From NCBI GenBank assembly GCA_030656575.1, contig JAUSPO010000168.1:1-55224 (forward strand): a DNA stretch of 55,224 nucleotides, written 5' to 3'. Below the pieces are notes generated by a model, which saw nothing but the letters and a program-made list of their open reading frames with translations, ran no database searches and had not been told where the DNA came from. Source of the DNA: Bacillota bacterium (GTDB taxonomy: Bacteria > Bacillota > Dethiobacteria > DTU022 > UBA8154). The translations under genes and the position numbers were made by a program. Of the stretch, positions 42,348 to 46,617 are shown in pieces; the first letter of the stretch is position 1; each line of letters opens with the position of its first letter.

Positions 42348-44450
42348 TTACTCTGGGTTTATATAGAATGGACGCTTTACTATACGGTTTAGAGGAGGAT
42401 ATTCAGAAGGTGGTTCCCAGGCCACTCCGTCCACTAAAAACACAAGCTGGTCAGGTTCAAGATTATTCGTCAGCGTCAAAAGCAGCGCATCCAAAAAGAG
42501 AGCCGCCAGTGCTTTTTCCTGGGGATTGGCGTCAGGGGGAAACAATTTTTTAAATGATGGGCCCCAGTCTAAGATGATTTCTTCTCGCAAAACTGTAATT
42601 TTATTAAGTTCCAACAGCTCAGGTAATAAGCTGCTGCTTTCCTCCAGAAGAATTCTGACCAGATCATGAGGAGTATTAAATTTTCCTCCAAGCTGGACCG
42701 CTTCCCGGGGAAGCAGGTAATAACGTTCTCCGGAGCGATAAGGCAGGTAGAGCAGCATTCTATTATTTTCCCCGGGATGGCGCGGTGGAAAAACCTGGTC
42801 AATGATCAGCCCTTCAGCACCAAAGCTTTCGGAATACTGCCCATCTACCAAAAAGCGGATACCTTCCACTGCATTAAATTGGGAGACAGTAAAAATCAGG
42901 GAATCTATAATGCCAACAATCTGGCTCGAACCCCCAAGACGGTTGAGTGCTCCAGGGAGGTTAATTTCAGTGAGACCGTCTTTTTGAACTACGTTAATAC
43001 CCGTATCTTTGGGAATAGTCCGCGAAAGGCCGCTAAAGCGGCGGGGGCCTTTCACCAGCTCATTGACAGCAACCTGTAGAACCCTCAAAGTCCTTTTCAC
43101 ATTACGGTTTACGGGAATAAGATGCACAGCCTCTTCATCGTAAAAATACAGGGTAAGGTAGAATTCGTCTCCTGGCCGTTCAAAGGCAACAGGCCGATAT
43201 ATTTCCCCACCCTGTTCAAAGTCTGCCTTCTCCGTTTCCTCATAGTAGATACCCGGACCGGGAATATCCAGAATAAAGATATTGCCATAGCTTCCAGCCA
43301 GGGTGAGGATTGTGCCATCGTTCGCCAAAGCCATTTTTTCTATACGGCTGGCCATCTCTATTTTTTGCAATGTGTTGCCATTGTTGTCCAGCACCAAGAC
43401 CATGCTAAAATCATCGCTGTATTCCCGCCAGGAAGAAGCTACGATTCTCTCACCATTAAAAGATGTCCGGATCAAAGAACCGTCAGGAATCCTCTTTTTC
43501 CAAAGAACGTGGCCGTCTTTATGAAAAGCAAAAAGGTTGCTGCTCCCGCCGGAGAAAGCACTGTAGGCCAGTACCTGCTCTCCTCCTTCGGTGATGTCCA
43601 GCCAGCTTATTTCTATATTGATGGAATGACTGGATAAAAGGACGGGGGGAGCCGTTTCCCTCAGACTGTAAAAATTGATCATCTCCCCCGTATAGGTAAC
43701 AACAAAATTTCCGCAGCCCGACACAGAAGACAGCAGAGCCTTTTCCTCCCATAACAGATCTCCCATGGAGAGAATAACAAGGGTGTTTATTTGATCCCCT
43801 TTTTCAAGATAATAAAGCTCCCCTCCGGGTAAAATTTTTAGATCCAAAATCATACCGGTTTTCAATTCCCCGAGCGGAGTGCCCCATTTATCCAAATAAT
43901 AAAGCATATAACCGTCTTCTTCTTCAATAGAAACCGCTAAGTAATTACCCTCCGGATCAAGAGCGAGTTGTCTAGGCCTGCCCTCAAAAAGATTTTCCCA
44001 TAAAACATGCCCGTCATTTCTCAAAAAATATAATTTACCAAGGTCTGTGCCCACTGCCACATAGCACCCGTCAGAAGTCAAATCGGCAGCTACAGGGCTG
44101 CCTTCAGGGAAAAATTCCCACCTCAGGCGCCCCTGATCATCTAACATATTAATTGAGCGAGCATCCAGGCTGAAGATAATCTCACTTCCAGAGCTGGAAA
44201 TGGCAAGAGCATGCACGGTCATTTCCGGGTTCACAACAGAAAAGCGCCCCCTGAGATACAAGTCACCTGATCTTTCCAGCCCCCATATTACAGGCTCAAC
44301 AGGAGCATCCTGGGAAAAGGGGATCCTCGGAGCACAGGCAGAGCTTTGAAGCAGCGCCGTTAATAGTAGAATAATAAGAGCCTGTTTCAGATAAGGGTAT
44401 ATTTTCCCTGGCAATAAAATTACCTTAACATTATTTTTTCTGATAGTCAT
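42348..44450 (-). CDS. lipoprotein with beta-propeller and GerMN domains (LpqB-like)
   Basis: A 700-aa exported protein. A hydrophobic segment (about 21-36) ends in SSACAP, a plausible lipobox with Cys. Residues about 55-410 are repeated blade-like units (GSEIIFSLDARSINMLDDQG, DGHVLWENLFEGRPRQ) of a beta-propeller. A GerMN domain follows (about 425-560; LRVLQVAVNELVKGPRR and GLTEINLPGALN), then a second, weaker GerMN-like unit. The start overlaps the histidine kinase stop in ATATGA, so it is translationally coupled. Actinobacterial LpqB, linked to MtrAB, has the same two domain types in reverse order. It may sense or tune envelope state through the kinase. Confidence 0.8.
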   Translation of the reverse strand: MTIRKNNVKVILLPGKIYPYLKQALIILLLTALLQSSACAPRIPFSQDAPVEPVIWGLERSGDLYLRGRFSVVNPEMTVHALAISSSGSEIIFSLDARSINMLDDQGRLRWEFFPEGSPVAADLTSDGCYVAVGTDLGKLYFLRNDGHVLWENLFEGRPRQLALDPEGNYLAVSIEEEDGYMLYYLDKWGTPLGELKTGMILDLKILPGGELYYLEKGDQINTLVILSMGDLLWEEKALLSSVSGCGNFVVTYTGEMINFYSLRETAPPVLLSSHSINIEISWLDITEGGEQVLAYSAFSGGSSNLFAFHKDGHVLWKKRIPDGSLIRTSFNGERIVASSWREYSDDFSMVLVLDNNGNTLQKIEMASRIEKMALANDGTILTLAGSYGNIFILDIPGPGIYYEETEKADFEQGGEIYRPVAFERPGDEFYLTLYFYDEEAVHLIPVNRNVKRTLRVLQVAVNELVKGPRRFSGLSRTIPKDTGINVVQKDGLTEINLPGALNRLGGSSQIVGIIDSLIFTVSQFNAVEGIRFLVDGQYSESFGAEGLIIDQVFPPRHPGENNRMLLYLPYRSGERYYLLPREAVQLGGKFNTPHDLVRILLEESSSLLPELLELNKITVLREEIILDWGPSFKKLFPPDANPQEKALAALFLDALLLTLTNNLEPDQLVFLVDGVAWEPPSEYPPLNRIVKRPFYINPE

Positions 44451-45883
44451 ATGACATCTTCCTCATAATCAGCTTGTATTGTTACATCTACCGGAAGAGT
44501 AAAGAAAAAGGTGCTGCCTTTGTCTTCCTGGCTTTCCTCAACTCCAATTTGACCACCATAATGATCGATTATCTCCTTGCAAATAGCCAACCCCAGGCCT
44601 GTACCTCCCAGGTAACGGGACCTGGACTTGTCAACCCTGAAAAAACGTTCAAAAAGATGAGGAATTGCTTCTTCAGGTATACCGCAGCCTGTATCCTGAA
44701 CGGTGACTATTACCTCACCTGCCCTGTTCTCAGCTGCAATTTTAAGCCAACCGCCGGAGGGAGTATACTTAATAGCGTTATCCAAAAGATTGAAGAGCAC
44801 TCTTTTGAGGGCTTCCGGAGAAATAAAAAAAAGAGGAAGTCCTTCTGAGATTTCTTTGAAGAGCGTTAACCCTTTGCGCTTAACGCGAGGGCTGGTAACC
44901 TCCAATACTTCTTCCAGCAGCTCTCCTAAAGAAAAAATCTCACTTTTTTCGCCTACTTCCTGTCTTCTTGTCAGCTCCAGAAGGTCTTCTACCAGGTAGA
45001 TTAAGCGTTCGGTTTCCTTGTTGATATCCTGCAAAAATTCCTTCTGCTCTTCCGGTTTCATTTCATAATCTTCCAGGGACTGGAGGCAGATGTGTATGGA
45101 AGCAAGAGGCGTCCTCAGCTCGTGGGAAACATCGCCCACAAAACGTGTGAGGTGCTGGTTCGTCTCCTTAACCCTTGCGGCCATGATGTTAAACTGCTGC
45201 GCCAGCCGCCCGATTTCATCATCTGTGGTAATAGGAATATTCTGGTCCAGTTTCCCTTCAGCCATCTGCTGGGCTACGCCAGTTAACTCTTTAATAGGTT
45301 TCGTGAGGCGATGGGCAAAAAGTATTACGAGCCCCCCTGCAAAAAGCATGGCAGTAAGCGTGGAGACGACCATAAAACGGCGGATGGCCGTGAGGTTTTC
45401 ATAAACAGGTGCCAGGGAAGCGGAAAGAAAGACTGCCCCAAAAGAAGTATCGTGTTCTTCCACAGGAACAGTTACCTGGAGAACCCATTGATCTGAAAGC
45501 TTGCTGTATTGAATACTGCGGCCCATTCTTCCTTCCAGGGCATCCTGAACTTCTGACCGCTCCAACCTTGAGCCCAAAAGCCCTCCGATGCGTACTGAAT
45601 CTCCCAAAACTAATTTTTGGGGGCTGACGACAATGACCCGTGCATTGATCTGACGGCTAAAACTCTCAGCCACACTGCTTAGGAGAACGGGGTCCGAATC
45701 TTCCCTTAGGTAGGTCAGGAATGATTCTGCCGCCAACCTGCCTGTGCGCTGTAAATTTTCTTCCTCTGACGAGAGGTAATAATTTTCGAGAACATTTAAG
45801 AGGACAAGCCCGGTTGCCAGCATCACCGCTGCGATAAGCAAAAGATATGTTATTGTCATTCTGAGACGAATACTATTGAACAT
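44447..45883 (-). CDS. two-component sensor histidine kinase
   Basis: A 478-aa membrane kinase: helix at about 8-30, an extracellular domain (about 31-160), second helix near 165-185, HAMP linker, the phosphoacceptor His in FVGDVSHELRTPLASI (about 255), the N-box NLLDNAIKYTPSGG, and DTGCGIPEEA, GGTGLGLAICKEI of the ATPase. This PhoR/MtrB-like layout pairs with the upstream OmpR-type regulator. It overlaps the lipoprotein gene downstream. The stimulus is unknown, and the lipoprotein is a candidate. Confidence 0.92.
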   Translation of the reverse strand: MFNSIRLRMTITYLLLIAAVMLATGLVLLNVLENYYLSSEEENLQRTGRLAAESFLTYLREDSDPVLLSSVAESFSRQINARVIVVSPQKLVLGDSVRIGGLLGSRLERSEVQDALEGRMGRSIQYSKLSDQWVLQVTVPVEEHDTSFGAVFLSASLAPVYENLTAIRRFMVVSTLTAMLFAGGLVILFAHRLTKPIKELTGVAQQMAEGKLDQNIPITTDDEIGRLAQQFNIMAARVKETNQHLTRFVGDVSHELRTPLASIHICLQSLEDYEMKPEEQKEFLQDINKETERLIYLVEDLLELTRRQEVGEKSEIFSLGELLEEVLEVTSPRVKRKGLTLFKEISEGLPLFFISPEALKRVLFNLLDNAIKYTPSGGWLKIAAENRAGEVIVTVQDTGCGIPEEAIPHLFERFFRVDKSRSRYLGGTGLGLAICKEIIDHYGGQIGVEESQEDKGSTFFFTLPVDVTIQADYEEDVI

Positions 45884-45894
45884 ACTATTTTAGG

Positions 45895-46581
45895 TTATCC
45901 CTCCCTGAATTTATAACCTGTCCCCCAGACTGTAAGGATTAAGCCGGGATCTGCCGGAAATTCCTCAATTTTTTCCCTTAAATGCCTGACGTGGACATCC
46001 ACCGTACGGGCATCACCAGAGTGCTTTTCTCCCCATATCTCCTCAAGGAGCTGGTCTCGGGAATAGACTCTTCCGGAATTTGAAGCTAAAAAGCTCAGGA
46101 GGGCATATTCCTTTGAAGTAAGAAATACTTCACGATCTTTAACTGTAACTTTATGTTTGATAAGATCTATCTGCAGATCCCCCACCTTGATGCTGTTTTT
46201 TTCTAAGGCAGGCTGATGAACAGTGCGGCGTAAAATAGCCTTAATGCGCGCCACAAGTTCCCGCGTGTTAAAGGGCTTTGTCATATAGTCGTCTGCGCCA
46301 AGCTCGAGTCCGAGAATTTTGTCTATATCCTCGTCCCGGGCCGTAAGCATAATAATCGGGACCTCAGAGTCCCGTCGTATACTGCGGCAAACCTCATAAC
46401 CATCAATTTTAGGAAGCATGAGATCAAGAATGACAAGGTCCGGTTCTTCTCTGTCCACGGACTTTAGAGCCTCTTCTCCGTCAAAGGCCACCTCTACATT
46501 AAATCCTTCTTTTTCCAGGCTAAACTTAAGCGCCTTGGCAAGGGTTATTTCATCCTCGACAAGGAGGATTTTTTCATTCAT
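45895..46581 (-). CDS. OmpR/PhoB-family response regulator
   Basis: A 228-aa regulator: receiver domain with acidic pocket in LLVEDE, phosphoacceptor D53 in ILDLMLPKIDG, Thr in LTARDED and Lys in DDYMTKPFNTREL, followed by a winged-helix output domain (FLTSKEYALLSFLASNSGRV, SGDARTVDVHVRHLREKIEE). I use the ATG at 46581 (MNEKILL), 12 nt after AGGAG. It is the first gene of the three-gene signalling operon; its targets are not known. Confidence 0.93.
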   Translation of the reverse strand: MNEKILLVEDEITLAKALKFSLEKEGFNVEVAFDGEEALKSVDREEPDLVILDLMLPKIDGYEVCRSIRRDSEVPIIMLTARDEDIDKILGLELGADDYMTKPFNTRELVARIKAILRRTVHQPALEKNSIKVGDLQIDLIKHKVTVKDREVFLTSKEYALLSFLASNSGRVYSRDQLLEEIWGEKHSGDARTVDVHVRHLREKIEEFPADPGLILTVWGTGYKFREG

Positions 46582-46617
46582 GACAATCCGCATCTCCTGA
46601 ATCAGTATATATTTTTG

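Follow-up and report, generated by a model that had tools for sequence, protein, structure and literature searches.

In Actinobacteria, the MtrA-MtrB two-component system is accompanied by a third protein, the lipoprotein LpqB, which is likely to be a periplasmic modulator of MtrB (PMC12338722). A TapA pull-down enriched LpqB along with MtrB (PMC12338722). Parageobacillus has AOT13_14265, a propeller lipoprotein whose gene probably shares an operon with those of a two-component system and which is likened by the authors to LpqB (PMC13068155). A literature search that covered few subscription papers returned none linking GerMN with LpqB, and the papers mentioning GerMN together with a histidine kinase appear unrelated.

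An arrangement of this kind was examined in a 55,224-nucleotide contig (here called the window; contig C94 of a 2.99 Mb, 99% complete genome) from a Bacillota bacterium of the class Dethiobacteria. In the list of open reading frames, genes for a response regulator (RR), a histidine kinase (HK) and a lipoprotein (LP) are co-directional on the minus strand between positions 42348 and 46581. Their features are as follows:

45895-46581, minus strand: RR of the OmpR/PhoB family, REC plus winged helix, WalR/MtrA-like (Pfam, NCBIfam)
44447-45883, minus strand: membrane HK, WalK-like (Pfam, NCBIfam, structure match)
44447-44450, minus strand: ATGA shared by the end of HK and the beginning of LP, TCATATGACT
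42348-44450, minus strand: membrane LP, 700 amino acids (Pfam, AlphaFold2, Foldseek, hhalign)
43269-44258, minus strand: eight-bladed beta-propeller of LP, about residues 65-394 (AlphaFold2, Foldseek)
42834-43169, minus strand: first GerMN domain of LP (GerMN1; Germane in Pfam), about residues 428-539, and 428-548 in the AlphaFold2 model (Pfam, model)
42435-42758, minus strand: second GerMN domain (GerMN2) of LP, about residues 565-672 (profile-profile match and topology)

The RR open reading frame spans 45895-46593, and the conserved start MNEK at 46581 is preferred over 46593. The order of the three genes and the overlap between HK and LP had both been noted in a preliminary description of the window, and both were found; the layout suggests that HK and LP are likely to be translationally coupled through the ATGA overlap. 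Scans for sigma-70 promoters and terminators gave no signal above chance. Across Dethiobacteria the locus runs EF-G, Ddl, PdxST, UDG, RR, HK, LP, ArgS, SerS, with small variations. As this order is kept class-wide while LP identity is 25-60%, the association of the three genes is not a matter of chance. At one locus (L139:3562-4605, family f7; family codes are labels internal to this analysis), a second, tandem double-GerMN lipoprotein lies between LP and ArgS.

The LP N-terminus has a signal or transmembrane helix (residues 17-38) with the lipobox LLQSSAC, followed by a PVEP motif. The type of anchor varies among families (lipobox in f1, f3, f6, f7 and f8; a plain transmembrane helix in f2 and f5), and membrane anchoring is conserved across them despite this switch of kind. 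The Germane domain was detected at residues 433-538 with an E-value of 1.4e-20 (74 bits against a Pfam cut-off of 23) and was present in 30/30 LP homologues. The propeller was sub-threshold by Pfam when the window protein was searched alone (PQQ_2, 4.7e-5). An AlphaFold2 model built from the 30 homologues (pLDDT 85.5) contained the N-terminal helix, a propeller at residues 65-394 and two domains of GerMN topology. Propellers were the best Foldseek matches to this model, with eight-bladed ones among the closest (Cake8, TMt 0.74; TBLR1, 0.75). GerMN2 was below Pfam detection in the window LP. Alignment of GerMN1 with the C-terminal unit by hhalign gave a probability of 95.5% (E 1.5e-8), and in the model the strand and helix order of GerMN2 is that of GerMN1; on the model and the profile match, the C-terminal unit is a genuine second GerMN domain. 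The protein ends in the tail RPFYINPE (window 42348-42374), of which (Y/F)INPE is nearly invariant across families. A lipoprotein with a propeller and a GerMN domain, and the presence of a second GerMN-like unit, had been proposed from the window alone, and these results bear both out.

The HK is composed of TM1, an extracytoplasmic sensor of Cache-like type (about residues 32-157), TM2, HAMP, HisKA and HATPase_c, and has no PAS domain. Against the sensor, Cache_WalK gave 3.4e-5 (24.7 bits, below the cut-off of 27). The best PDB match of the kinase, extending across 607 columns, was 9a5d, a model of WalK-YycH, and the nearest NCBIfam model was WalK (NF033092; 335 bits, under the cut-off of 725). 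The RR matched Response_reg (2.3e-32) and Trans_reg_C (5.9e-29) in Pfam, and its best NCBIfam model was YycF (NF040534; 266 bits, under the cut-off of 340). Neither YycH nor YycI is encoded downstream of the window pair; elsewhere (L204, contig C135), the host genome has a separate and full set of RR, WalK, YycH and YycI genes, beyond which lies HtrA. By these sequence comparisons the window RR-HK pair is assigned as a WalRK-like paralogue of the host’s own WalRK. An identity as Pst-linked PhoPR was set aside: both RR and HK fall outside the Pst-linked clades in the two trees.

The preliminary description had likened the locus to MtrA-MtrB-LpqB, and the parallel in gene order and domain content is real. 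If the trio were a true orthologue of MtrAB-LpqB, derived from a common ancestor or by transfer, its lipoprotein domains would have been shuffled; the identical gene order and the Germane domain common to both lipoproteins are consistent with this. Genuine mtrA-mtrB-lpqB loci from Nocardia, Tsukamurella and Nonomuraea (three actinobacteria only) served as positive controls; they were drawn from three plasmid-collection records that look chromosomal. The HK scored 202 bits on the MtrB model (NF040691; cut-off 450) whereas the MtrB controls scored 650 and 660, and the RR scored 255 bits on the MtrA model (NF040689), below the cut-off of 300. The LpqB model did not match the window LP at all and gave 666 bits with an LpqB control. 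Gmad1, the LpqB propeller family, was found in 0/30 LP homologues, and the LP propeller profile was only a 21.7% probable match to the LpqB propeller. In the LpqB control (L190) Germane (183-303) precedes Gmad1 (336-597), so that the domain order of LP is the reverse, as the preliminary description had stated. In the best kinase tree the Dethiobacteria kinases do not group with MtrB, which sits at the end of a very long branch, and MtrA is likewise long-branched in the RR tree; a single clade of Dethiobacteria kinases and MtrB was not rejected at 5% by the AU test (p = 0.064, with three actinobacteria sampled), which leaves orthology some room. Viral contigs probed with MtrA gave no match.

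Taken together, these data make orthology with MtrAB-LpqB highly improbable, and the kinship that the earlier wording implied is not supported, given the scores on the MtrA, MtrB and LpqB models, the absence of Gmad1 and the WalK-like character of the kinase. LP and LpqB most likely came by convergence to resemble each other in the propeller and have only the GerMN theme in common, and the favoured explanation is that the propeller joined a GerMN partner independently of LpqB.

The distribution of the trio was surveyed in relatives including Dethiobacter and ‘Syntrophomonadaceae’ metagenome-assembled genomes (MAGs); among genome contigs, a single-sequence query gave no match and an alignment query did. 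An LP match was found in 65/71 genomes of the order, some via GerMN alone. Class-wide, about 73/98 genomes match over most of LP and 7 more over part of it, so that LP is present in about 80/98. Outside Dethiobacteria, about 380 genomes sampled from the phylum gave nothing beyond a GerMN match to LP. The suggested survey of the three-gene order found it fixed across the class; of the classes sampled, Dethiobacteria alone had LP as a complete propeller protein. Three draft genomes (G048, G073 and G087) yielded neither an orthologous RR-HK pair (best RR 50-54% identical) nor a full-length LP. Two public MAG records titled Desulfovibrio sp. (L064, L080) carry the Dethiobacteria RR-HK-LP locus and are probably mislabelled.

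LP is cleanly missing between HK and ArgS in about four lineages (L129/L131/L148; L136; L140; L138). These comprise genus g9, G019, G046 (L140) and G081 (L138), mostly draft genomes, and the neighbouring genes are in place. LP is therefore dispensable to the RR-HK pair. In G081 the kinase (L138:6886-8001) has also lost its extracytoplasmic sensor, of which 13/126 residues are left. Sensor rates were expressed as sensor branch length relative to the kinase core with the core-tree topology fixed. After LP loss the sensor/core rate was 2.47 in g9, 3.13 in G046 and 0.87 in G019, compared with 1.09 on branches that retain LP (p = 0.006, the branches not being independent); the values for g9 and G046 are above 2.39, the 95th percentile among comparable tips with LP. 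HAMP/TM2 was also faster after LP loss (1.5-fold, p = 0.014), and the rise is therefore not sensor-specific. G047, which retains only the propeller of LP, showed no acceleration (0.79), a single case hinting that the propeller is the part of LP that matters. At L054:6004-7182 LP is cut down to the propeller alone, and the sister genome G046 (L140) is without any LP.

These observations bear on what LP does. It is reasonably probable that the trio is a Dethiobacteria three-component envelope-sensing system in which LP regulates the kinase from outside the cytoplasm, acting like YycH/YycI or LpqB. LP would sit anchored on the outer face of the membrane, where its propeller and two GerMN domains would contact the Cache-like sensor of HK or an envelope component; this would shift the kinase/phosphatase balance of HK, and RR would then adjust envelope genes. 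The co-directional overlapping genes, the class-wide fixed locus and the clean LP losses with sensor changes may be taken as indirect support for such regulation, and an LP-HK interaction appears likely. Analogy offers possible precedents in WalK-YycH, the best structure match of HK, and in LpqB-MtrB. A role for the pair in envelope regulation is inferred from its kinship with WalRK. G019, in which LP was lost without acceleration of the sensor, counts against this reading, as do the faster HAMP/TM2 after loss and the dispensability of LP to the pair.

LP might instead be an output, an envelope-assembly protein or a PQQ/BamB-like scaffold that is co-transcribed with the two-component system without acting on it. 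Its propeller resembles BamB/PQQ propellers, GerMN domains build rings as a scaffold in the sporulation protein GerM (PMC13068155), and RR-HK stays where LP has been lost. This is nevertheless unlikely, as the sensor was deleted or accelerated in three of the four LP-less lineages, LP invariably follows an RR-HK pair of the window type in the loci examined, and related pairs of other Bacillota also have an extracytoplasmic GerMN partner. Still less probable is a spore-formation system, in which LP would be an envelope protein of sporulating cells and RR-HK would regulate sporulation: the annotation of Germane names sporulation and spore germination, and a further GerM-like protein with two GerMN domains is encoded in the host genome (C188), but the locus is a housekeeping one (Ddl, PdxST, UDG, ArgS, SerS), the kinase is WalK-like, and actinobacterial LpqB (L190) has Germane without endospores. 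A regulator of the kinase remains the preferred role for LP, and the trio probably constitutes an undescribed envelope-sensing system, as had been suggested.

The GerMN partner was sought beyond the class in 40 regions that surround the closest non-Dethiobacteria RRs. A GerMN gene directly follows the kinase in 8/40 of these (f18, f28, f35, f87) and follows after one gene in 3/40 (f59), counts that are not an estimate of frequency because the regions were picked by RR similarity. L141 (f34) is a further case of a GerMN gene directly after the kinase. At two f28 loci (L149:3757-5421; L155:1613-3340) the RR-HK pair is followed by a protein in which an FG-GAP propeller comes after GerMN. The two domains are thus ordered as in LpqB, with a propeller that is unrelated, and propellers have therefore probably joined GerMN more than once. 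The f28 members also include RR-HK-YycH. The RR tree groups the GerMN-linked Bacillota RRs that it contains with those of Dethiobacteria in one clade (94/86). For the kinases, a clade of Dethiobacteria and GerMN-labelled sequences was rejected (p 2e-5) when nested rows, including the GerMN-encoding L177, were excluded; with the corrected 39 rows, a set named after the trees had been seen, a single clade was not rejected (p 0.52).

On these loci, the GerMN third gene appears older and more widespread in Bacillota than the propeller-GerMN LP. The preliminary description had offered ‘an ancient shared module or independent assembly’: the evidence favours independence for the propeller, and the GerMN third gene itself is the older and wider element. 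The findings point to a largely unnamed GerMN-linked two-component lineage in Bacillota. More tentatively, this could be a third group of WalRK/PhoPR-type systems in Bacillota, its hallmark being a GerMN partner outside the cytoplasm. Unrelated propellers would have been added to that partner on two or more occasions, a PQQ/WD-type one in Dethiobacteria and an FG-GAP one in f28, paralleling LpqB in Actinobacteria. If so, GerMN plus propeller would have served envelope kinases repeatedly as an input device. By comparing the independent GerMN-propeller partners, the natural LP losses and the natural sensor deletion, one can test which domain communicates with the kinase.

The trio resembles several described systems in part. 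GerM, a sporulation protein with the ring-building motif, is also a membrane lipoprotein with two GerMN domains, but lacks a propeller and any link to a two-component system. AOT13_14265 is likewise a lipoprotein with a propeller, likely encoded together with a two-component system, although its propeller is seven-bladed and GerMN is not mentioned in the available portion of the article (PMC13068155). Other Bacillota have RR-HK-GerMN loci (f18, f28, f34, f35, f87, and f59 with one gene between) that share a related RR and a GerMN third gene, without the PQQ/WD-type propeller. MtrA-MtrB-LpqB of Actinobacteria has the same order of RR, HK and lipoprotein, a lipoprotein uniting GerMN and a beta-propeller, and a third protein that is a probable periplasmic modulator of the kinase; it differs in that LpqB has one GerMN ahead of a Gmad1 propeller, whereas LP has a propeller and then two GerMN domains, and in that RR and HK belong to other families by score and in the best trees. 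WalR-WalK-YycH-YycI of Bacillota provides the nearest HK and RR families by score, with a sensor that the window HK probably resembles in its Cache-like type, and with membrane-anchored extracytoplasmic partners encoded directly downstream; the window HK, unlike WalK, has no PAS domain, and its partner is a propeller-GerMN-GerMN protein instead of YycH/YycI.
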